Translations under genes and position numbers: made by a program
In this document: piece after piece, positions 10,820 through 63,611 of the stretch
Position numbering within the stretch: the stretch's first letter is position 1
Layout: each line of letters begins with the position of its first letter
Notes under the pieces: model-generated
Databases searched by the model: none
Seen by the model: the letters and a program-made list of their open reading frames with translations, nothing else
What the model was told of the DNA's origin: nothing
IMG/VR virus record: IMGVR_UViG_3300037089_000505
Span: 79,948 to 143,947 of that record
DNA: 64,000 bases
Direction: 5' to 3' (one strand)
Source of the DNA: a virus

Positions 10820-11011
10820 ATGGCTACCTTCTTACGTTTCATGGTTTTTATTGTCATGGGCGCTGGGGGTCTTTTCCTGGGCATCTTTTTAGTATATCTT
10901 GCCTGGACGTTTCTACCCTTGATACTTTCTATTTTCGCAACAGTCATAGCATTTGTGCTTTGGTGCTGGGGAGTAGTTGAAGTCGGGGCATGGGTCATAA
11001 TTTCGGCATAG
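10820..11011 (+). CDS. small membrane protein (63 aa)
   Basis: The AAAGGAAG ribosome site overlaps the T-tract end of the terminator. Two hydrophobic helices (FMVFIVMGAGGLFLGIFLVYL; LILSIFATVIAFVLWCW). Confidence 0.6.
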   Translation: MATFLRFMVFIVMGAGGLFLGIFLVYLAWTFLPLILSIFATVIAFVLWCWGVVEVGAWVIISA

Positions 11012-11019
11012 GAGAGACA

Positions 11020-11790
11020 ATGACTGATTCACTTGGCGATAGGATGAAAGGCAATTACGAAAACCGTTCTCGGTTTTACCTGACTCGAAGAACGCCTGTC
11101 ATCATTCGTGTAGATGGCCGAGCCTTTCACACTCTGACTCGCAACTGCGAAAAGCCCTTTGATGAGAGTTTGAGCAAATGCATGATCGAGACTACGATCG
11201 GACTCTGTGAAGAGATTCAAGGCGCAAAATGTGCCTACGTCCAAAGCGACGAGATCTCAATTCTGATTACCGATTATGATCGTCTTAGCTCTGGCGCCTG
11301 GTTCGACTACAACCTCCAGAAGATGGCTTCGGTCTCAGCTTCCATCGCCACTCTAGCTTTCGGTCTTTCTATAAGAAAAATCGCTGGCGATTGGAACGAT
11401 TGGAAAAGTCAAGCCAAAGCTACATTCGACTCTCGCGTTTTCAATATTCCGAGAGAAGAGGTGACCAACTATTTCGTTTGGAGACAGCAAGACTGGACTC
11501 GCAACAGCCTTGAAATGCTGGCTCGAGCCCACTATTCACACAAACAGCTGGACAAAAAGAATGGTGCAGCAATGCACGAGATGCTCCACGAGAGGGGCGT
11601 CAATTGGGCGGATCTCCCTGACAAGTGGAAGAATGGAAGTCTCATTGTCAAAGAGTCTATTCTCATAGACCTGAATCAGGACATGGTAGCTTCAAACATG
11701 CGGTCTGAGTGGAAGCCGAAAGATCCATGTCCCATTTTCAAGAACGACCGAGACGCTATCGAGAAGCTTCTCATACCTGAGGAGGTATAA
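11020..11790 (+). CDS. Thg1-like tRNA 5'-end repair polymerase
   Basis: A Thg1-superfamily nucleotidyltransferase adds nucleotides in the 3'-to-5' direction, to tRNA-His in eukaryotes or to damaged tRNA 5' ends in bacterial Thg1-like proteins. Visible motifs are PVIIRVDGRAFHTLTR (first metal-binding Asp) and QSDEISIL (second Asp/Glu pair), in the expected order and spacing in 256 residues. A GGAGAG site precedes ATG 11020; an upstream ATG at 10990 is less likely. The His tRNA at 58314 already encodes G-1, so a repair role fits better than G-1 addition. Confidence 0.88.
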   Translation: MTDSLGDRMKGNYENRSRFYLTRRTPVIIRVDGRAFHTLTRNCEKPFDESLSKCMIETTIGLCEEIQGAKCAYVQSDEISILITDYDRLSSGAWFDYNLQKMASVSASIATLAFGLSIRKIAGDWNDWKSQAKATFDSRVFNIPREEVTNYFVWRQQDWTRNSLEMLARAHYSHKQLDKKNGAAMHEMLHERGVNWADLPDKWKNGSLIVKESILIDLNQDMVASNMRSEWKPKDPCPIFKNDRDAIEKLLIPEEV

Positions 11791-17037: not shown

Positions 17038-17616
17038 ATGGAACTCTTGAAATTCATCGACACCAATTCTGATTGGAAAGAAAAAATCCAAGCCGAACCT
17101 TTTTGTGTCAAGGTTGAGGAAGACGAACACTACGTCCTTCTGAAATACGATCAGATTCATTCTGACTTCAATATTCCCATGGTTCGGGAATGTCGGGGTA
17201 TCATCCTTACCAAAGACACTCATGAAGTGGTTTGCCATCCCTTCGACAAATTCGGCAACTATGGTGAGGGATACTGCCCAGAGATAGACTGGGCTACTGC
17301 TCGAGTTCAGTCCAAAATCGATGGCTGCTGTGATGCCGATGTTAAACTCATTACCAAAACCGGTGAAAAGGCTATAAAAGAAATCGTTGAGGGCGAAGAA
17401 GTCCTCACTTTCAATTTCGAAAAAGACCAACCAGAATTTAATGTTGTAAAGGCAACTTCCAAAAAATTCAACAACAACGATTGGTATGAAATAGAACTAG
17501 AAAATGACCAGAAAATAAAACTGACTGGTAATCATCGTGTTTGGGTAGAAAATCTGAAATGTTATCGCCAAGTAAAAGATCTGAAAGGCGATGAGGAGGA
17601 GGTTAAATTTATATGA
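17038..17616 (+). CDS. RNA ligase N-terminal fragment fused to an N-terminal split intein
   Basis: Residues 1-96 are the front of an ATP-dependent RNA ligase (Rnl1-like), reaching the active-site motif SKIDG with catalytic Lys93. At Cys97 an intein begins: CCDADVKLITKTGEK matches intein block A, and LTGNHRVWV matches block B with its conserved His. The frame stops after 96 intein residues, so this is a free N-intein half. The matching half lies at 19017. Splicing would join KIDG to SLIKVW and rebuild motif I. Extein codons look GC-richer than the intein part. Confidence 0.88.
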   Translation: MELLKFIDTNSDWKEKIQAEPFCVKVEEDEHYVLLKYDQIHSDFNIPMVRECRGIILTKDTHEVVCHPFDKFGNYGEGYCPEIDWATARVQSKIDGCCDADVKLITKTGEKAIKEIVEGEEVLTFNFEKDQPEFNVVKATSKKFNNNDWYEIELENDQKIKLTGNHRVWVENLKCYRQVKDLKGDEEEVKFI

Positions 17617-18037: not shown

Positions 18038-19060
18038 ATGAGAAATATAAAAGAAAGTGTTTGTGTTTGCGGACAAAAAATTACAAACATATCAGCGATA
18101 AATCATAAAAGACATTGCCCGGTCTTTTTAAAATACCGTGATAAGTGTCTCACTAAAGAATTTATTCAAAAAGAATATATTGAAAAGGGTCGGTCTTTAG
18201 AAGAAATACACAGAGAGCTTTCGATCCCAAGAAAATATATTGAAAGCAAAGTTTTAGAGTTTGGTTTCCAATTAAGAAACATAAAACAATCTAAAGCAAC
18301 TCAATACACAAAGAACAAAACGATAGCGACTACTATTGATAGATACAGCGATGTAAATGTTTTGGGCAAGAATTCGCCAATTTACAATGAAAGAAATAAG
18401 ACAGTAAAGCAAAGGTATGGCGTAAATAACGTATTTCAGCTGGCTGCCGTGAAAGAACAAATCACCAATAGTCATCTTGAAAAATACGGCAAGAAAAGAA
18501 TTACTAATGGACAAAAAATATCAACAACGAGAAAAGAAAAATTTAAAGCAGGCGAATATAAATATTTCAGTAGAGCAATGTCAGAGACAGCCAAAAGCAC
18601 TTATAATAAATTAAGCGAAAAAGAAAAAGTAGACAAAATGGTTCATATGAGAAAGTTTATAGACGTGAATTCTTTTATGTCAAGACCAGAAGAGAAAGTG
18701 GCGTTGATATTAACAGAGCTTAAGATTGAATTTCAACATACACTTTTCATAGGTCCATTTTCTTACGATTTTCATATCAAACATACGCCCGTAGTAATTG
18801 AAGTTCAAGGAGATTATTGGCACGCTTCCCCAGACAGATATGAAGCTAAAGATTTACTTAGCAGACCGGGTAATAAGCTTGTTGAAGCTCAAGAGATATG
18901 GGTCAAAGATGCGGCTAAGAGGGCATACATCGAAAAATATGGATACAAAGTTTTTTACATTTGGGAACACGAACTCAAAGATTTGAAGAGTATCGAAGGT
19001 AGGTTAATATCTCTGTATGAAGAGCATAAAAATAAAAAGCATCAAGAAGATTACAAATAA
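18038..19060 (+). CDS. Vsr-like homing endonuclease between split-intein halves
   Basis: The C-terminal ~110 residues carry a Vsr/EDxHD-type nuclease fold: SRPEEKVALIL, FSYDFHIKH, VVIEVQGDYWHA, and a late KVFYIWEHEL. The middle has DNA-binding repeats of the 'RYGVNN.FQ...KE.I..' type, and the N-terminus has a Cys/His pair cluster. It cuts DNA to spread the cassette. Its 3' end overlaps the next gene by 44 nt. Endonucleases of this family are known from 'fractured genes', where split inteins flank a free-standing endonuclease gene. Confidence 0.85.
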   Translation: MRNIKESVCVCGQKITNISAINHKRHCPVFLKYRDKCLTKEFIQKEYIEKGRSLEEIHRELSIPRKYIESKVLEFGFQLRNIKQSKATQYTKNKTIATTIDRYSDVNVLGKNSPIYNERNKTVKQRYGVNNVFQLAAVKEQITNSHLEKYGKKRITNGQKISTTRKEKFKAGEYKYFSRAMSETAKSTYNKLSEKEKVDKMVHMRKFIDVNSFMSRPEEKVALILTELKIEFQHTLFIGPFSYDFHIKHTPVVIEVQGDYWHASPDRYEAKDLLSRPGNKLVEAQEIWVKDAAKRAYIEKYGYKVFYIWEHELKDLKSIEGRLISLYEEHKNKKHQEDYK

Positions 19061-19910
19061 CTCGAAGAGATATGATGTCCAAACTGACAACGGCAATTTC
19101 TTCGCGAATAATATCCTCGTCCACAACTCTCTCATCAAGGTTTGGTACCATAACTTCTGGCACGTCTCTTCCAACGGTATGATCGACGCTGGGTCTTGCG
19201 ATCTCTCTCTTCCGTTCGGAAGCTACAAGACGCTCGGCGATCTTTTCAGCCAGGCCTTTTTCTTCAAACACAAGAAGAGCTTGAATGATCTCAACAAGAA
19301 CTACACCTATATGTTCGAGCTCATCAGCCCCTACAATCGGGTAGTCATTCCTTACACCGAGATTGACATTTACCATATCGGCACCAGGGAAACGAAGACT
19401 GGAATAGAGCTTATCATTGATATCGGAATTCAGAGACCGAAAGAATTCAATCTTCATACTCTGGATGATGTAATCGCCGCGGCAAAAGTCCTCCCCTTCA
19501 ATGATGAAGGCTACGTGGTGGTTGACGGAAAATGGAATAGAGCGAAGATCAAGTCGCCAGCTTATGTCGCCGTCCATCATCTCAGGGGCGAAGGCAATCT
19601 TTCCTACAAGCGAGTCCTGGTCTTGATCATGTCCAATGAACATACTGAGTTTCTGAACTACTTCCCTGAGTATGTTGAAGTATTCGGTCAGGTAGAAAAG
19701 AAGTATAAAGACTACGTCGAGAAACTCCTTCAGTCTGCAACTGACGCAATTCAGTATAAGAGCTTGCCTCGAAAAGAATATGCCATGTGGGCAACCAAAC
19801 AGGTTGAGCCGGCCTTTCTTTTCCAACTCCTTGATGGAAGGATCAAGACGGCTGAGGAATACTTGGAACAGGTCGGGCCCGAAAAGGTTGCCAAGAAGTT
19901 GGGATACTAA
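19017..19910 (+). CDS. C-terminal split intein fused to RNA ligase C-terminal fragment
   Basis: The first 37 residues are a C-intein: KRYDVQTDNGNFFANNILVHN fits blocks F and G, ending His-Asn. Ser38 is the +1 nucleophile. The remaining ~260 residues continue the ligase from SLIKVWYHN through MFELISP (motif IIIa-like), DEGYVVVDG (motif IV-like) and AKIKSP (motif V-like). Together with the protein from 17038 it would give a ~356-residue Rnl1-type enzyme after trans-splicing. Confidence 0.88.
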   Translation: MKSIKIKSIKKITNNSKRYDVQTDNGNFFANNILVHNSLIKVWYHNFWHVSSNGMIDAGSCDLSLPFGSYKTLGDLFSQAFFFKHKKSLNDLNKNYTYMFELISPYNRVVIPYTEIDIYHIGTRETKTGIELIIDIGIQRPKEFNLHTLDDVIAAAKVLPFNDEGYVVVDGKWNRAKIKSPAYVAVHHLRGEGNLSYKRVLVLIMSNEHTEFLNYFPEYVEVFGQVEKKYKDYVEKLLQSATDAIQYKSLPRKEYAMWATKQVEPAFLFQLLDGRIKTAEEYLEQVGPEKVAKKLGY

Positions 19911-22157: not shown

Positions 22158-22367
22158 ATGGACGACCTAATCAAAGCTCTTCAAATCATGCGGAAGTATT
22201 GTAAAAACGAATACGCTCCGTGTTCTTGTGAACACGATATTCTCTACGTCAATTGCGTGGATCCCGCTAACGTTTCTGAGGAAGACATAAAGGCACTCGA
22301 TGAATTGGGGTTCAGTCCGAATTCTTCTTGGCCAGCATTCTATTCTTTCAGATTCGGATCCTGCTAA
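22158..22367 (+). CDS. small conserved phage protein
   Basis: Recognisable phage pattern: CEHDILYVNCVDPANVSEED, then ALDELGF and a final FYSFRFGSC. Such 65-75 residue proteins occur in many phages; the function is unknown. AAGGAG site. Confidence 0.65.
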   Translation: MDDLIKALQIMRKYCKNEYAPCSCEHDILYVNCVDPANVSEEDIKALDELGFSPNSSWPAFYSFRFGSC

Positions 22368-22377
22368 GGAAAAACAT

Positions 22378-23682
22378 ATGGAACTTAAAGGAAAATACGC
22401 TAACGCAATCGTCTACAACGACTTAGTCGAGGCTACCTGTATCTCGCAGATTCTTGGCCTGTTAAACCATCCTCTGTCTGAAAACTCCAACCCTCGCTTC
22501 ATGCCAGATTTGCACGCGGGAAAAGGCTGTGTCATCGGCTATACTGCTATTCTTCCGCCTGATGGAAAGGTAGTTCCTAACCTCATCGGTGTAGATAAGG
22601 GATGTGGCGTCTATACCATTTGCCTTGGATTCTTGGCCGATATCGGCGAAAAGTTTGACAAGCTTGACAGGTTCATTCGCAACGAAATTCCTTCCGGGTT
22701 CAAGAGCAACGAACGAACCAATCAGGATCTGGAGGAAATTTTCCGAAAGGGACTTGCGAGCAATGGTCTTTATGCAAACATCCGTGATTTCGATGTCGCC
22801 CTTAAGGAAGTGTGCAAGCGTCAGGATCAGAGCTATGATGCGGTAATGAGACAGATTGGAACTCTCGGCGGTGGAAATCACTTCATTGAAGTTGGACTCG
22901 ACGAAGAGAATCGTCTTTGGCTGACGATCCACTCTGGCTCGAGACACTTCGGAAACATCAGCTGTCTCTTCCATCAGAAAAAGGCACAGAACAAATACCT
23001 CGGTCTCGATGATGAAACCTTCCGAGCAAAGGTGGAGGAAATCAAACGGACCAAGCACGGTAAAGGTATTGAAGCAGCAATTCAGAGACTCCGTTCAGAA
23101 GCCCGGAAGGGTGGCAAGAAACCCAACGGTCTTGAGTGGTTAGAGGGCAAAGATCGCGAAACTTACATTCACGACTTGAAAGTTGCTCAGTTGTATGCAA
23201 AACTCAATCGCCATACGATGGCCTACGCTATTGTGAACGGCTTCTACAAGCTGGACATTTTCAGCCTGAAGAGAATTGAGTCTGTCCACAACTACATCAA
23301 CTTCGAAGATAACATCGTTCGAAAGGGCGCGATCTCTGCTCATATCGGAGAAGAGGTTGTCATTCCCTTCAACATGAGAGACGGTTTGATCATTGGAATT
23401 GGAAAAGGAAATCCTGACTGGAACTTTTCTGCACCGCACGGGTCTGGAAGGAAGATGTCTCGTTCGGCCGCAAAAGGCCTGGACCTTGCTCATTTCGAGA
23501 AAGTTATGAAGGATGCGGGTATCTGGTCTACTTCAATAGGTAAAGACACACTCGATGAATCGCCCATGGCCTACAAGAACACTGAAGACATTGTGGCTCT
23601 TTTAGGGCCGACTGTAGAAATTAAGCATCGCGTGAAGCCAATCTACAATTTCAAGTCTGGCAAAGAAGAGGAAAGAGAATAA
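22378..23682 (+). CDS. rtcB: RtcB family RNA ligase
   Basis: Joins 2',3'-cyclic phosphate or 3'-phosphate RNA ends to 5'-OH ends using GTP and Mn. All signature blocks appear in order: DLHAGKGCVIG, GVDKGCGV (metal Asp/Cys), LGGGNHFIEV, HSGSRHFG, VHNYI, and APHGSGRKMSR with the guanylylated His. Length 434 is typical. In Archaea and animals RtcB seals tRNA exons after intron removal; in bacteria and phages it repairs cleaved tRNA. This is notable given the interrupted tRNA genes in the window. Confidence 0.93.
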   Translation: MELKGKYANAIVYNDLVEATCISQILGLLNHPLSENSNPRFMPDLHAGKGCVIGYTAILPPDGKVVPNLIGVDKGCGVYTICLGFLADIGEKFDKLDRFIRNEIPSGFKSNERTNQDLEEIFRKGLASNGLYANIRDFDVALKEVCKRQDQSYDAVMRQIGTLGGGNHFIEVGLDEENRLWLTIHSGSRHFGNISCLFHQKKAQNKYLGLDDETFRAKVEEIKRTKHGKGIEAAIQRLRSEARKGGKKPNGLEWLEGKDRETYIHDLKVAQLYAKLNRHTMAYAIVNGFYKLDIFSLKRIESVHNYINFEDNIVRKGAISAHIGEEVVIPFNMRDGLIIGIGKGNPDWNFSAPHGSGRKMSRSAAKGLDLAHFEKVMKDAGIWSTSIGKDTLDESPMAYKNTEDIVALLGPTVEIKHRVKPIYNFKSGKEEERE

Positions 23683-32220: not shown

Positions 32221-32421
32221 ATGGAAGAAATGGAAGCTAGAGAATTAGCAAAACAGCGCAATCTTAAACGTGCCGCTAAAAGATACGAACAAAACAAAAT
32301 GGCAATAGAAAAAGCCAACGAAGATTTACAAAGACGCATATCTAAAAGAACATTAGAGATATTAGATTCAAGTATGAAAAATTTTAAGAAAGGTAAAGTG
32401 AGTGATCCCATTGACATTTAG
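32221..32421 (+). CDS. basic coiled helical protein (66 aa)
   Basis: AAGGGG site upstream. Entirely charged helix (ARELAKQRNLKRAAKRYEQN). The TAG stop shares its G with the first base of the tmRNA. Confidence 0.55.
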   Translation: MEEMEARELAKQRNLKRAAKRYEQNKMAIEKANEDLQRRISKRTLEILDSSMKNFKKGKVSDPIDI

Positions 32422-32773
32422 GGGACGTTAAGGTTTCGACTGGAATTGGTTCGGTCTTGGATCGCAAGTAGAGTGCTAAACTCTTAAATTAGCAAAAACA
32501 CAACTGCCGAAAATTTTGACGCAGATTTTGCTCTGGCTGCTTAAACAGTCCTCGCACGGGTCTTCAGAGTCTAGTCTCCAACATCTGAATTAACCTGAAA
32601 CAAATCGAGACTTACTTATAGATGATTTCGTTACATCTCTAAGAAAACTATAACGAATTTGATAAAGAGCAGAAGTTGGCTCTTAACTCTTTATCGAGAA
32701 AACAATACCAACTAAACTTGTAGAAGTTCTTGATCAGCATTCCAACACGCGGGTCCGACTCCCGCCGTCTCCA
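32421..32773 (+). ncRNA. ssrA: tmRNA (transfer-messenger RNA)
   Basis: The 5' end GGGGACGTTAAGGTTTCGAC and 3' end GTCCGACTCCCGCCGTCTCC pair as the tRNA-like acceptor (GGGGACG with CGTCTCC) and T-arm. An internal reading frame at ~32494-32544 encodes a tag ending DFALAA then TAA, the classical protease tag; the visible tag is about KNTTAENFDADFALAA. Stalled ribosomes would be rescued and the product tagged for proteolysis. The 3' CCA is not encoded after the discriminator A. Phage-encoded tmRNA is rare but known from large phages. Confidence 0.92.
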
Positions 32774-32849
32774 TAAAGAAGATAAAATATTATCTCTTCT
32801 TGAAATTAGAAAGTGTCTAAAGATAAAATACACGAGGTAAAAAATAAAC

Positions 32850-41001: not shown

Positions 41002-41610
41002 ATGAGAAAATTATTTCTTGTTTTGTTTTTATTCGTAGCTGCTCTTTCATTTGCTAATAAGAGCTGGTATGTAGATCAGAATGGAACTGGCATAGGAAAC
41101 TGTGGACCGGCAACGGTAGCTATGATGATTTCTTATACAGAACACGTTCGCATTCCAGTACAAGTAATTCGGGAAGAGATAGGATATACAAGAGATGATG
41201 GCAGTACAGATCTTGAAGAGTTATCAGGTGTTCTTGAGCGTCATAAAATTCGTTATTCTAAAACAGAAATAAAGACGAAGGTTGATTTGGATGAGCTTTT
41301 GGAAACTCATCACATAGTTTTAGTTGACGTAGATATGAGCTATATCCCTAATAAGAGCAACTATGATAAAGGTCACTACTTGATTCTGTCTAGCTATAGT
41401 GAAGGGACTTATGAGGCTCAAGATCCTCTTAATGGATCTGATGTTCATTACAACGCTGATGCAATATGGTCAGCTATGAAAACGAGAGAAGTACTTGTAA
41501 CTGGTAATGGAAGACTGCCACTAGTAGGTTTTGGATTTATTACCCAAATACTATTAGTCATCGACATTAGTGCTATCGTAGTTCCGAAGAAAATTATTTT
41601 GCCGTGTTAG
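41002..41610 (+). CDS. secreted C39-like cysteine peptidase
   Basis: A signal peptide (KLFLVLFLFVAALSFA) is followed by WYVDQNGTGIGNCGPATVAM with the catalytic Cys, later GHYLILSS (His) and DPLNG (Asp/Asn): the papain-like peptidase C39-like family. A periplasmic or cell-surface role is likely. It begins one base after tRNA-Asp without a ribosome site and ends inside the next tRNA, whose bases 8-10 supply its TAG stop. Confidence 0.75.
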   Translation: MRKLFLVLFLFVAALSFANKSWYVDQNGTGIGNCGPATVAMMISYTEHVRIPVQVIREEIGYTRDDGSTDLEELSGVLERHKIRYSKTEIKTKVDLDELLETHHIVLVDVDMSYIPNKSNYDKGHYLILSSYSEGTYEAQDPLNGSDVHYNADAIWSAMKTREVLVTGNGRLPLVGFGFITQILLVIDISAIVVPKKIILPC

Positions 41611-41702
41611 CTCAGTTGGTAGCAGCGTTTCCTTGGAGAATGCTTTTTTAAGAGAGCACTGTCCTAAGGAAAAGGTCCCCAGTTCAATTCTGGGACACGG
41701 CT
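41601..41702 (+). tRNA. tRNA with a 28-nt hairpin insert in the anticodon loop (probably Thr GGT)
   Basis: All arms are canonical except the anticodon loop: acceptor GCCGTGT/ACACGGC, anticodon stem TTTCC/GGAAA, 5-nt variable loop, T-arm CCCAG-TTCAATT-CTGGG. The loop from 41633 to 41667 is 35 nt instead of 7. It contains a 7-bp hairpin (41641-41647 with 41652-41658), and GGA near the 5' side can pair with TCC near the 3' side. Removing 28 nt could leave loop TTGGTAA (Thr), TTCCTAA (Arg) or Ser anticodons. The short variable loop and T discriminator favour Thr. Confidence 0.8.
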
Positions 41703-41946: not shown

Positions 41947-43143
41947 ATGAAAAGATTCAAGAATCTGTTCTTGTTTTTGGCTGTTCTTGTATTAGCGTCA
42001 GCTAGTGCTTGGGCGATGCCAGCGGCAGGTAAGACTCTTACCATCGGATTGGTACTGGTCGGACCTTACAATGATCTAGGATGGAGTCAGGCAAATTATG
42101 ATGGCGTTCAATACGTCGTCAAGAATGTTCCTGGAGTTCAGTTCATTTATATTGACAAGGCTAATCCAGCAGACAGGCCGGGAACGACAGTGTCTCAACT
42201 AGCTGAAAGTTTGGTTGCAAAGGGCGCGAAGCTAATTATCTTCAGCTCAGATGATATGGGTGATGAGGCAGTTAAGTTTGCTACAGCGCATCCTGATATT
42301 TTCGTTGTTATGACTTCTGGTAGCCAGGTATGGAATGCTGGAAAAACCTATCAGAACCTACCGAACATGATTAACATCATGGGTCGTATGGAATTTGGCA
42401 AGATGATCGCAGGAGTTGCCGCCGCCATGACGACAAAGACTGGTAAAATTGGTTACCTCGGACCACTTATCAATGATGAAACGAGGCGATTGTGTTCTTC
42501 AGTATATCTTGGAGCCAAGTACGCTTGGACAAATTACTTGAAGAAAGATGCTGCTAAGCTTCAATTCAAGGTAACTTGGATTGGATTCTGGTTTAACATT
42601 CCGGGTATCACTTCAGATCCCTCACAAGTGGCCGATGCATTTTTCAATGATGGTTACGACGTGGTAGTTTCTGGTATTGATACTAGCGAAGTTGTTACAG
42701 AGGCAGCAAAGTTTACGGCTCAAGGCAAGAAAGTTTTCGCAATTCCTTACGATTACTCAAGCGCCTTCGCCGCTTCACCTGAGGTTAATTTGGGCGTTCC
42801 TTATTTTAATTGGGGTCCTGCTTATGTAGTAGCTGCAAAAGCTGCAATGGGTGGTTCTTGGGTTTCCCACTTTGAGTGGAACTCCCCCGACTGGAAGAAT
42901 GTTAACAACCCTGATACATCAGCGGTTGGTTTCAACAAGGGCAAGGCACTTTCACCTAAGGCTTCGGCTGCAGTTGATAAGTTTCTTTCCGAACTTGCAT
43001 CAGGACTTAACCTATGGAAAGGTCCTATGAAGCTTCAAGATGGTAAGACCTACTTGGTCGATGACCAGAAGGCAACAGATCAGCAGATCTGGTATTTGCC
43101 TCAACTCTTGGAAAATATGCAAGGACAGAGCGTTTCGAAGTAG
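41947..43143 (+). CDS. BMP/PnrA-family periplasmic solute-binding protein
   Basis: A signal peptide (FLFLAVLVLASASAWA) and a ~375-residue two-lobe binding protein of the basic membrane protein (BMP) group: KTLTIGLVLVGPYNDLGWSQ at the start, then KGAKLIIFSSDDMG, KTGKIGYLGPL and GYDVVVSGIDTSE. BMP proteins bind purine nucleosides or related ligands for ABC importers. No lipobox Cys is present, unlike most BMP lipoproteins, and no permease genes follow. A viral copy is unusual. GAGGAG site at 41936. Confidence 0.85.
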   Translation: MKRFKNLFLFLAVLVLASASAWAMPAAGKTLTIGLVLVGPYNDLGWSQANYDGVQYVVKNVPGVQFIYIDKANPADRPGTTVSQLAESLVAKGAKLIIFSSDDMGDEAVKFATAHPDIFVVMTSGSQVWNAGKTYQNLPNMINIMGRMEFGKMIAGVAAAMTTKTGKIGYLGPLINDETRRLCSSVYLGAKYAWTNYLKKDAAKLQFKVTWIGFWFNIPGITSDPSQVADAFFNDGYDVVVSGIDTSEVVTEAAKFTAQGKKVFAIPYDYSSAFAASPEVNLGVPYFNWGPAYVVAAKAAMGGSWVSHFEWNSPDWKNVNNPDTSAVGFNKGKALSPKASAAVDKFLSELASGLNLWKGPMKLQDGKTYLVDDQKATDQQIWYLPQLLENMQGQSVSK

Positions 43144-43152
43144 TATTACAAT
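43134..43152 (+). promoter_or_regulatory. class A-like element (TTCGAAGTA-N4-TACAAT) at the BMP stop codon
   Basis: Same string and spacing as the class A promoters, here overlapping the TAG stop and just before a terminator. A start point would fall inside the terminator stem, so activity is doubtful. Confidence 0.4.
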
Positions 43153-43154
43153 TA

Positions 43155-43179
43155 GAGGGCAAGGCTTCTTGCCCTCTTT
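43155..43179 (+). terminator. intrinsic terminator
   Basis: 9-bp GAGGGCAAG/CTTGCCCTC stem with a GCTT loop and a short T tract. Confidence 0.8.
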
Positions 43180-43182
43180 CAC

Positions 43183-43256
43183 TCGCCCTTGGCCAAGTGG
43201 ATTAAGGCAGAAGACTTTGGATCTTCTATGCGCAGGTTCGAATCCTGCAGGGCGAA
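43183..43256 (+). tRNA. tRNA-Gln(TTG)
   Basis: Acceptor TCGCCCT/AGGGCGA, anticodon arm GAAGA-CTTTGGA-TCTTC, T-arm GCAGG-TTCGAAT-CCTGC, discriminator A. U1-A72 is typical of Gln. Confidence 0.9.
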
Positions 43257-43265
43257 TATTTACAC

Positions 43266-43340
43266 TGTCCCGTAGCTTAGCTGGCCGAAAGCGTCTGTCT
43301 CTGGAACAGAAGAGCCTCCGTTCAAATCGGAGCGGGACAA
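43266..43340 (+). tRNA. tRNA-Gln(CTG)
   Basis: Acceptor TGTCCCG/CGGGACA, anticodon arm TCTGT-CTCTGGA-ACAGA, T-arm CTCCG-TTCAAAT-CGGAG, discriminator A. Confidence 0.9.
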
Positions 43341-43354
43341 AAAGAAAGGGAAAC

Positions 43355-43771
43355 ATGGAACTAATAATTTCAATCGGTCTCCCCGGCTCTGGCAAATCTA
43401 CTTACTATCGCACAGCGCTTGCGAAAAGTCACACACAAATCTCCAAGGATCTAATGAGCGGCTCTCCAACTAGAAAAAATCAGATTCAGATTGACATGAT
43501 TACTCAATCTCTAACTAAAGGATTGAATGCAGTAATCGACAATACTAGTGTCACAGCTGAAGTTCGGAGGCCTTTAATTGAGCTCGGCCACAAACTTGGC
43601 GCAAAGGTAATTGCGTATTACTTTCCGACTTCAGTCAAAGATTGTATTGCTCGCAATGCTCAGCGAACGGGTAGGGCTAAAGTACCAAATGTGGCTATCT
43701 ACACTATGGCAAAGAAGCTTCAAGGGCCAACAAAAGCTGAAGGCTTTGACGACATAATTACGATCAATTGA
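43355..43771 (+). CDS. polynucleotide-kinase-like P-loop protein
   Basis: GLPGSGKSTYY at residues ~8-18 is a Walker A loop of the T4 Pnkp kinase-domain type. VIDNTSVTAEVRRPL carries the Walker B-like Asp. The rest (KVIAYYFPTSVKDCIARNAQR, then a lid Arg pair) matches small phage/bacterial AAA kinases. It would phosphorylate 5'-OH ends of nucleic acid, feeding the RNA or DNA ligases. There is no phosphatase domain. AAAGGGAAA site. Confidence 0.8.
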   Translation: MELIISIGLPGSGKSTYYRTALAKSHTQISKDLMSGSPTRKNQIQIDMITQSLTKGLNAVIDNTSVTAEVRRPLIELGHKLGAKVIAYYFPTSVKDCIARNAQRTGRAKVPNVAIYTMAKKLQGPTKAEGFDDIITIN

Positions 43772-57415: not shown

Positions 57416-57541
57416 GGGAGTGTAGCTTAGAGTGCATAGTAAGGGCGCTACAGCATTGATCACACTACTGTAGAAGAGCTACTATGACGGCAGAGCGGTC
57501 TCTAACCGGGGCGAACGCTGGTTCGAATCCAGCCACTTCCG
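57416..57541 (+). tRNA. tRNA with a ~57-nt structured insert in the D-loop (anticodon probably TCT, Arg)
   Basis: Acceptor GGGAGTG/CACTTCC, D-stem GCTT/GAGC and T-arm GCTGG-TTCGAAT-CCAGC frame a tRNA. Between the D-stem halves lies an insert with CATAGTA (57435) pairing TACTATG (57480), and inside it CTACAG (57448) pairing CTGTAG (57468). The anticodon arm is weak (CGG-TCTCTAA-CCG, 3 bp) and would read TCT with C33. Could be a processed precursor or a decaying gene. Confidence 0.6.
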
Positions 57542-59668: not shown

Positions 59669-59770
59669 GTTGAGTGCCTAATGATGACTCTGAATCTACA
59701 TTATATCGCCGAAAGGACTTTAAATAGCCACAGCTTAATTCTGTTGGTTTTGCAAGTAGGTGGCCTCAAC
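59669..59770 (+). other. weak tRNA-like fold
   Basis: GTTGAG (59669) pairs CTCAAC (59765). Inside, ACAG-CTTAATT-CTGT looks like an anticodon arm reading TAA. No D- or T-arm consensus. Low support. Confidence 0.35.
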
Positions 59771-61138: not shown

Positions 61139-61786
61139 ATGATTGAGTATCCATCAATAATCAATAGTTCAAAAGCTCCACGTAAGCCAATGATAGCTTT
61201 TGAAAAAATCGATGGCAGCAATATCCGCATTAAATGGACACACAAAAGGGGCTTTGACCTTTTTGGTAGCCGGCAACAGTTGCTTGACTCTAGTCATCCT
61301 AGTCTGGGCGGAGTAGTCCAGATCTTCAACGAGCGCTACAAAGATGCTCTTGAGGAAACTTTCAGACATGAGTATGGGAAAGAGAATGAGATCATTGTCT
61401 TCGGCGAATACTTTGGACCCAGCTCTTTCGCCGGAATACATAGCGATCCAATTTCAGCAATGAATTTCTATCTGTTTGATATCCTTTTTGTAAAAAAGAG
61501 CTACACAGAATTTCTTTTGCCACAAGATCTCGTCAAGATCTTCCCCAAATTCGAAAGATTTGGGATGCCTGTACCAAGAGTTGTCTATGAGGGGAACCTC
61601 ACTGATGATTTTATCAGACGGGTCCGCGAAAATGAATTCAATTTGAATGAGGGCGTCGTCTGCAAAGGCACTCAACGTCTTGGATCTTTCCGTGGCAAAG
61701 TCTGGATGTGCAAAATCAAAACGAACGCCTATCTTCAACGTCTCAAAACTAGATTCCAGGAGGACTGGAACAAGTATTACGAATAG
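61139..61786 (+). CDS. ATP-dependent RNA ligase (Rnl2-like)
   Basis: Motif I is AFEKIDGSNIRIKW (catalytic Lys ~23). GEYFGPSSFAG is motif III/IIIa, LNEGVVCKG motif IV and WMCKIKT motif V. At 215 residues it is a minimal nucleotidyltransferase domain with little beyond the core. Seals 3'-OH/5'-PO4 RNA nicks. GAAGGAG site follows tRNA-Asn directly. Confidence 0.88.
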   Translation: MIEYPSIINSSKAPRKPMIAFEKIDGSNIRIKWTHKRGFDLFGSRQQLLDSSHPSLGGVVQIFNERYKDALEETFRHEYGKENEIIVFGEYFGPSSFAGIHSDPISAMNFYLFDILFVKKSYTEFLLPQDLVKIFPKFERFGMPVPRVVYEGNLTDDFIRRVRENEFNLNEGVVCKGTQRLGSFRGKVWMCKIKTNAYLQRLKTRFQEDWNKYYE

Positions 61787-62800: not shown

Positions 62801-63361
62801 ATGATTTGCGAAAATTGCAGCAAAGATTTCTCTGAAGATTGGCGAATAGGTAAAAAGAGAGGACTATTACGGTTCTGCTCTTCACGATGTGCAAAGCGTC
62901 GAAAACAAACTGATGCGATTAGAGAGGCAAAAAGTAAAGCTAGCAAAGCTGCTTGGAAAAGAGGTGTCTATAAAAATCAATACAATCACACTTTTTCAAA
63001 AGCAGACAGAAAAAAGGGCATTGATACTTGTATAGAAAAAGCTAAAACAAGAAACGCAGAACTATTAGCCACTCATCAATATGAAAAAATGAGCAATGAG
63101 GTTAGAAGACGATTTATCCTCGACGAAGTTAATCATGCCTGTGAGTCATGTCATAATTCAGAGTGGCTTGGAAAACCAATATGGTTAGAAATACATCACA
63201 AGGATGATGATAATACGAACAATAAACGCGACAATCTTTTAGTTCTTTGTCCAAATTGTCATTCAGCAATAGATGAGAAATATAGGTTTAGAGGGCGAAG
63301 TAGAAAAAAGACCGAAAGTAGCTCAGTTTGGCTTAGAGCATCTGCCTTATCGGAAGCATAG
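62801..63361 (+). CDS. HNH homing endonuclease (186 aa)
   Basis: N-terminal zinc motif CENCSKDF...CSSRC, then CESCHNSEWLGKPIWLEIHH and NLLVLCPNCHS, the HNH core. The C-terminal 16 codons run into the interrupted tRNA-Ile gene, and its TAG stop lies in the tRNA insert. A free-standing endonuclease abutting an interrupted tRNA suggests it moves with, or targets, that locus. Confidence 0.82.
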   Translation: MICENCSKDFSEDWRIGKKRGLLRFCSSRCAKRRKQTDAIREAKSKASKAAWKRGVYKNQYNHTFSKADRKKGIDTCIEKAKTRNAELLATHQYEKMSNEVRRRFILDEVNHACESCHNSEWLGKPIWLEIHHKDDDNTNNKRDNLLVLCPNCHSAIDEKYRFRGRSRKKTESSSVWLRASALSEA

Positions 63362-63414
63362 GTTGAGTGCTTCAGATAAGCAGGGGGTCGGTGGTTCAAA
63401 TCCACCCTTTCGGA
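63312..63414 (+). tRNA. tRNA-Ile with a 27-nt hairpin insert in the anticodon loop
   Basis: Canonical otherwise: acceptor CCGAAAG/CTTTCGG, D-stem GCTC/GAGC, anticodon stem TCTGC/GCAGG, variable GGGTC, T-arm GGTGG-TTCAAAT-CCACC. The loop (63346-63379) is 34 nt. CTTATC pairs GATAAG and inside it GAAGCA pairs TGCTTC. Removing 27 nt leaves CTGATAA (anticodon GAT) or CTTATAA (TAT), both Ile. Confidence 0.85.
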
Positions 63415-63562: not shown

Positions 63563-63567
63563 TATTA

Positions 63568-63611
63568 GACGGAAGGTTCAACTCCTTCTTCGAAGAAAGA
63601 TTTCGTCCGTC
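63568..63611 (+). other. tRNA remnant or hairpin
   Basis: GACGGA/TCCGTC encloses GAAGG-TTCAACT-CCTTC, a T-arm-like hairpin, and a TTCTTCGAAGAA palindrome. No complete tRNA. Confidence 0.4.

Follow-up and report, generated by a model that had tools for sequence, protein, structure and literature searches.

Two tRNA genes of the phage recorded in IMG/VR as IMGVR_UViG_3300037089_000505 have an anticodon loop split by a short hairpin, and we assign both inserts to a conserved family of mini-introns. These genes, for tRNA-Thr(GGU) and tRNA-Ile(UAU), are situated on a stretch of 64,000 nucleotides (positions 79,948 to 143,947 of the record), referred to as the window, and coordinates are those of the window unless stated otherwise. 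Judged from sequence comparison, the inserts in both tRNAs are not due to chance and the genes are not degraded pseudogenes. It is highly probable that the intron is removed before the tRNA is used. The best explanation as a whole, in which we have considerable though lesser confidence, is that the mini-intron is excised by an endonuclease and that the tRNA halves are joined by a phage RNA ligase.

The tRNA-Thr(GGU) gene (41601 to 41702, plus strand) is recognized by the Rfam tRNA model RF00005 with 48.1 bits, and its excess length is confined to the anticodon loop, which counts 35 nucleotides and is closed by the stem TTTCC/GGAAA (41628-41632/41668-41672). ARAGORN misses the gene in its default mode and calls a 28-nucleotide insert in intron mode. 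This insert, AGAATGCTTTTTTAAGAGAGCACTGTCC (41637 to 41664, plus strand), prolongs the anticodon stem into a single long hairpin, and the gene folds with a minimum free energy of -41.4 kcal/mol (z = -4.3 against dinucleotide shuffles). An earlier note on this DNA had described an intron-like insert with its own hairpin in a loop of 35 nucleotides, on which Rfam, the ARAGORN intron mode and the fold agree, and had proposed that the end of the insert pairs with the anticodon (GGA with UCC), which the fold confirms. Its statement that all other arms are canonical holds for the acceptor, T and anticodon stems, which are paired, but not for the D stem, which contains one mismatch or an extra C (GCTC...GCAGC). 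Joining after G35 and before U36 would generate the loop TTGGTAA of a Thr-GGU tRNA, as the note had also predicted; it is the sole option that provides a non-serine tRNA, a 7-nucleotide loop and agreement with the tRNA body. The joined exons match tRNA-Thr best, the annotated records among the matches listed all being tRNA-Thr. A Ser(GGA) call by ARAGORN does not fit the short variable loop and was rejected.

A further case in the same phage, absent from the earlier note, is the tRNA-Ile(UAU) gene (63312 to 63414, plus strand), detected with 53.2 bits by Rfam and in ARAGORN intron mode with a 27-nucleotide insert. The insert, CGGAAGCATAGGTTGAGTGCTTCAGAT (63351 to 63377, plus strand), is placed between U36 and A37. 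Three neighbouring boundaries (36/37 or one to two nucleotides earlier) lead to the same product, CTTATAA (Ile-UAU), while a boundary shifted one further step earlier would yield Ile-GAU. The best full-length match of the joined exons is a tRNA-Ile.

Pattern scans of IMG/VR indicate that inserts of 20 to 50 nucleotides are common in phage tRNAs and of several kinds. A tight subset, of which 12 arms were aligned, shares a single architecture: the final bases of the insert, together with A37-A38, pair with U33-N34-N35-U36 and form one further pair, and a hairpin follows with an upper part of the form C-W-U-U / AGWG, in which a U.G wobble is found in 11 of the 12 members. The inserts are 26 to 28 nucleotides long, with one member of 34, and the reconstructed tRNAs are Thr-UGU, Arg-UCU and Ile-UAU. 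In the aligned arms, 94% of cells are paired, as compared with 42-51% in slid controls; both sides have changed in 15 of 18 pairs, and the covariation score is 0.73, against 0.11-0.20 in the controls. The score is 0.69 when the window sequences are left out. Two extra members in carrier contigs, with unpaired anticodons, are apparently Gly-GCC and Val-GAC.

Two covariance models of the family were used, R1 and R2, the latter built without any window sequence. R2 finds the tRNA-Ile arm over its full length (63340-63385; 29.1 bits, E=4.7e-6). In the tRNA-Thr gene, which R1 matches with 46.5 bits, R2 recognizes only the hairpin core (41638-41661; 15.5 bits, E=0.1), which is not significant alone; this is the second-best R2 match in the whole 144-kb contig and it sits inside a tRNA anticodon loop. 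The tRNA-Thr insert contains the conserved core CUUU..GAGAG and shares 21 of its 28 letters with the insert of a tRNA-Thr in record L263. On these sequence criteria, the tRNA-Ile insert is a clear family member and the tRNA-Thr insert a divergent one. Core-anchored pattern scans revealed no new members besides Aeh1, Ah1, PX29 and L263, and the tight family must therefore be rare. No close relatives of the window region were found in the phage collection, nor via a neighbouring protein. An enrichment of U36 was considered as a signature and rejected, ordinary tRNAs in the same scan showing it too. In G065 (59730-59763; L423:19730-19763), the same hairpin core, CAUUUCUAAGAGUG, occurs as a free-standing perfect hairpin (24.2 bits) just upstream of a tRNA-His gene and outside any recognized intron. 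From its sequence this core hairpin looks real, while the remaining weak R1 matches outside tRNAs look like chance.

The exact position of the insert is provided by cultured Aeromonas phages. PX29, a T4-like Aeromonas phage, is a member of the family, and at the tRNA-Arg(UCU) locus adjoining gene 57B an insert of 26 to 28 nucleotides is present in seven isolates: PX29, AsFcp_2, AsFcp_4, Aeh1, Ah1, avDM12-TAAL and phiWae14. At the same locus phiAS5 has no insert and encodes a normal tRNA-Arg(UCU) (GTGC CTTCTAA GCAC). The inserts interrupt exactly CTTCT|AA and, because of this empty site, the insertion can be placed between nucleotides 36 and 37, unambiguously so in PX29. The tRNA-Ile insert of the window is compatible with this site; the tRNA-Thr insert needs 35/36. 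Although the Aeromonas phage inserts are highly divergent in sequence, their structure is kept. The PX29 record annotates a two-piece, joined tRNA-Lys at this locus and the Aeh1 record a tRNA-Glu of 105 nucleotides; the sequences indicate that both genes are Arg(UCU) instead. Mini-introns thus account for tRNAs miscalled by annotation tools.

The family is also represented on a bacterial chromosome. Two Treponema metagenome-assembled genomes (L368 and L377), which can be considered as one species since their sequences are 99.96% identical, contain an interrupted tRNA-Arg(UCU) gene flanked by genes for V-ATPase subunits and by RelA/FlaA genes. On the basis of these neighbours, the insert resides on the chromosome and not in a phage. 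A PF09414 RNA ligase is present in each of the Treponema genomes, and in L446 such a ligase gene adjoins, convergently, an RNase III gene, named as such from sequence and not by a profile search.

These elements can be combined in a tentative scheme. The anticodon stem runs on into a helix that the anticodon forms with the 3' end of the insert, and on top of it sits a hairpin with the core C-W-U-U / (G)AGWG and its nearly invariant U.G wobble. An endoribonuclease would cut after nucleotide 36 and before A37 (at 35/36 in tRNA-Thr); in the paired form the two cuts would be staggered, equivalent to a 2-nucleotide 3' overhang. A phage RNA ligase, in all likelihood from the T4-type anticodon-repair set (Rnl1/Rnl2 and a kinase), would then join the halves to give tRNA-Thr(GGU) and tRNA-Ile(UAU) with 7-nucleotide loops. 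The structure, its conservation, the exact site, the intronless allele and the presence of ligases are direct observations, and removal of the intron is supported by the empty-site allele, the covariation, the independent detection of the tRNA-Ile insert, the agreement between exons and anticodons, and the chromosomal copy. As for the identity of the enzymes, we consider the chances about even that joining is performed by a T4-type ligase rather than by RtcB. A long helix with a 2-nucleotide stagger would suit an RNase III-like cut, and among endoribonucleases this type is favoured, but as a specific assignment it is doubtful.

The phage carries several RNA ligases. In the window, all on the plus strand, there are an Rnl2-family RNA ligase (61139 to 61786; PF09414, 59.7 bits), a polynucleotide-kinase-like protein inside the tRNA cluster (43040 to 43771; PF13671, phrog_505; true start probably near 43350), an RtcB-type RNA ligase (22300 to 23682; PF01139, 192.9 bits) and a Thg1-like tRNA 5'-end (3'-5') polymerase (10990 to 11790; PF04446, 99.3 bits). 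A second Rnl2-family ligase is encoded outside the window (contig positions 63198-63713). A T4 Rnl1-type ligase is apparently encoded as split-intein halves between 17038 and 19910. The N-terminal half (17038 to 17616, plus strand; phrog_562, E=2e-11) stops directly after the active-site motif KIDG and is fused to an N-intein; the C-terminal half (19017 to 19910, plus strand; phrog_562, E=2e-31; Intein_splicing) opens with a C-intein ending in VHN|S. Between them lie a homing endonuclease gene (18038-19060) and a small open reading frame.

Several points weigh against this scheme. Splicing is inferred from DNA sequence alone. No cutting enzyme was identified, and the 2-nucleotide stagger follows from the pairing together with an assumed 7-nucleotide loop, so that it lends no independent support to RNase III. 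The tRNA-Thr insert matches the independent model in the hairpin core only (E=0.1) and requires a register shift of one nucleotide (35/36). In favour of the scheme, RNA ligases of PF09414/PF09511 occur in 8 of 11 carriers larger than 50 kb versus 2 of 9 controls, but this association is not significant (p=0.07), also with looser candidates (9/16 versus 2/9, p=0.21), in comparison sets that are small and mostly made up of fragments. Moreover, large phages carry RNA ligases anyway, and two carriers, fragments of 39 and 122 kb, have none. The excess in carriers is thus suggestive only of a link between T4-type ligases and the inserts. Apart from Thg1, which three of six carriers encode, the genes common to carriers are generic ones of phages, and a 2H phosphoesterase as common factor gave only weak matches, in two carriers.

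The alternatives differ in who would cut, or in whether anything is cut at all. The earlier note saw RtcB as a link to archaeal and animal splicing, with an EndA-like endonuclease cutting a bulge-helix-bulge and RtcB joining the halves. That the phage encodes RtcB and that the anticodon pairs with the insert would fit such a route, but RtcB turned up in none of the other records with anticodon-loop inserts (sets of 15 and of 12, 27 in all) and was rejected as the common factor. EndA (PF01974) was not found in the contig, which is incomplete, or in 36 other records; the two 3-nucleotide bulges are missing, the site is 36/37 and not 37/38, and the host of the phage is almost certainly a bacterium because the contig carries a gene for transfer-messenger RNA (32421 to 32776, plus strand; RF00023, 127.9 bits). 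The link is not supported, and we regard this route as improbable. We give the same low standing to the idea that the insert always stays in place and that the RNA is a non-translating decoy, which might for example soak up the anticodon nucleases of the host, or a nuclease-insensitive variant. Phage tRNAs whose anticodon loops are altered have been proposed to evade anticodon nucleases (PMC10264068), and the helix would hide the anticodon. However, the ortholog without an intron encodes an ordinary tRNA-Arg(UCU) at the same locus, exons agree with the reconstructed anticodons, and a chromosomal tRNA gene also carries the insert.

Far less probable still is that the tRNA genes are decaying or damaged by recombination. 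The D-stem mismatch in tRNA-Thr and stray T-arms within some of the other collected inserts point in that direction, whereas the acceptor, T and anticodon stems are paired, the position is constant across genera of Aeromonas phages, and the compensatory changes and pairing in the aligned arms are kept with or without the window sequences; the decaying pseudogene that the earlier note had named as the case against its proposal is not what these genes look like. A self-splicing or self-cleaving ribozyme, either a group I intron or a small ribozyme, is the least credible of all. Group I introns are known from the anticodon loops of bacterial tRNAs, but the inserts, of 26 to 34 nucleotides, have no catalytic core, and Rfam reports only a tRNA here, in line with the statement in the note that the tRNA-Thr insert is too short for a group I intron. 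Excision by an endonuclease followed by ligation thus seems preferable to each of these.

Other classes of inserts were encountered in the same scans. A second, much commoner class consists of inserts of 40 to 50 nucleotides within the anticodon stem, on its 5' strand and at about 28/29-29/30. They typically follow ACG|T and contain a conserved hairpin of the CTT-GNNN-AAG type, to which CAGCAA is appended. The class is found in L046, L055 (two tRNAs), L077, L092, L122, L034-L036, PX29 (83774-83893) and LR756501 (L443), and thus in cultured Aeromonas phages as well as in a 735-kb huge phage. Complete tRNA genes are nested within another tRNA in L073 and L058, and also in L053, L060, L064, L066, L068 and L123; in L073 the inner gene is a tRNA-Asn whose CCA is encoded, and it lies exactly between U36 and A37 of a tRNA-Lys. 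Anticodon-loop inserts with a lone T-arm (GGTTCRANTCC) occur in L060, L104, L188, L211, L272 and PX29 (84043-84162), as if they were derived from tRNA fragments. In the window itself, a tRNA-like gene at 57416-57541 (33.8 bits) has a poor anticodon arm and a nested hairpin insert of about 55 nucleotides, apparently in the D loop; possible readings are a pseudogene and a third kind of insert. An orphan sequence resembling a tRNA 3' half (63563-63600) follows two Val tRNAs, and ARAGORN can assemble an interrupted Lys tRNA from this sequence and the 5' part of 63418.

Bacterial tRNAs are taught to be intronless, apart from self-splicing introns. A conserved and precisely sited mini-intron with compensatory changes implies a bacterial splicing step that is as yet undescribed, and suggests that bacteria and their viruses can splice tRNAs without recourse to the archaeal enzyme or to a self-splicing ribozyme. 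It could be imagined, although we would rather not count on it, that bacteria and phages share a protein-based tRNA splicing unrelated to EndA, in which a double-strand-type endonuclease excises a hairpin of 26 to 34 nucleotides at 36/37 and a T4-type ligase joins the ends, serving the chromosomal tRNA-Arg(UCU) of Treponema too. The mini-introns offer a purpose that RNA ligases and kinases may serve in the large phages that carry them, and the splicing of these introns is directly testable in cultured phages.

Introns in phage tRNAs as a kind are not new. They were reported first in Lak megaphages, as short, 'enigmatic' introns to which no mechanism was assigned and one of which possibly contains a tRNA gene of its own (Devoto et al. 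2019, PMC6784885). Like the family described here, they are short and reside in tRNA genes of a phage infecting bacteria; in its main text, PMC6784885 contains neither the family structure nor the 36/37 site in cultured phages nor a bacterial chromosomal case. The Lak introns were the only ones found in the literature searched. There we found no description of the family or its structure, of the 36/37 site, of an allele without the intron, of a member on a chromosome, or of the distinction from archaeal splicing. R1 has no match in 292 kb of Lak-A1, stretches in which the published intron-containing tRNAs were not located.

With the same pattern applied to GTDB genomes, A37 precedes the insert in 71 of 74 archaeal introns among the matches listed, the canonical archaeal site being 37/38. 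Archaeal pre-tRNA introns share with the inserts of the window a short length, the location in the anticodon loop and the ability to pair with the anticodon. In contrast, both inserts of the window stand before A37, there is no bulge-helix-bulge, EndA was not found in the records searched, and the host is bacterial. Bacterial and cyanobacterial tRNA genes also contain group I introns, which likewise interrupt the anticodon loop, but these are autocatalytic and longer than 200 nucleotides, whereas the inserts of the window count 27 to 28 nucleotides and have no core. The anticodon-loop repair of T4, finally, in which Pnkp and Rnl1 seal host tRNA-Lys after a defensive cut by the nuclease PrrC, has its counterpart in the Rnl1 and kinase-like protein encoded by both the phage of the window and PX29. 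It differs in that the insert would first need to be excised; if the proposed scheme is true, the 'tRNA repair' enzymes of T4 would double as a splicing system.
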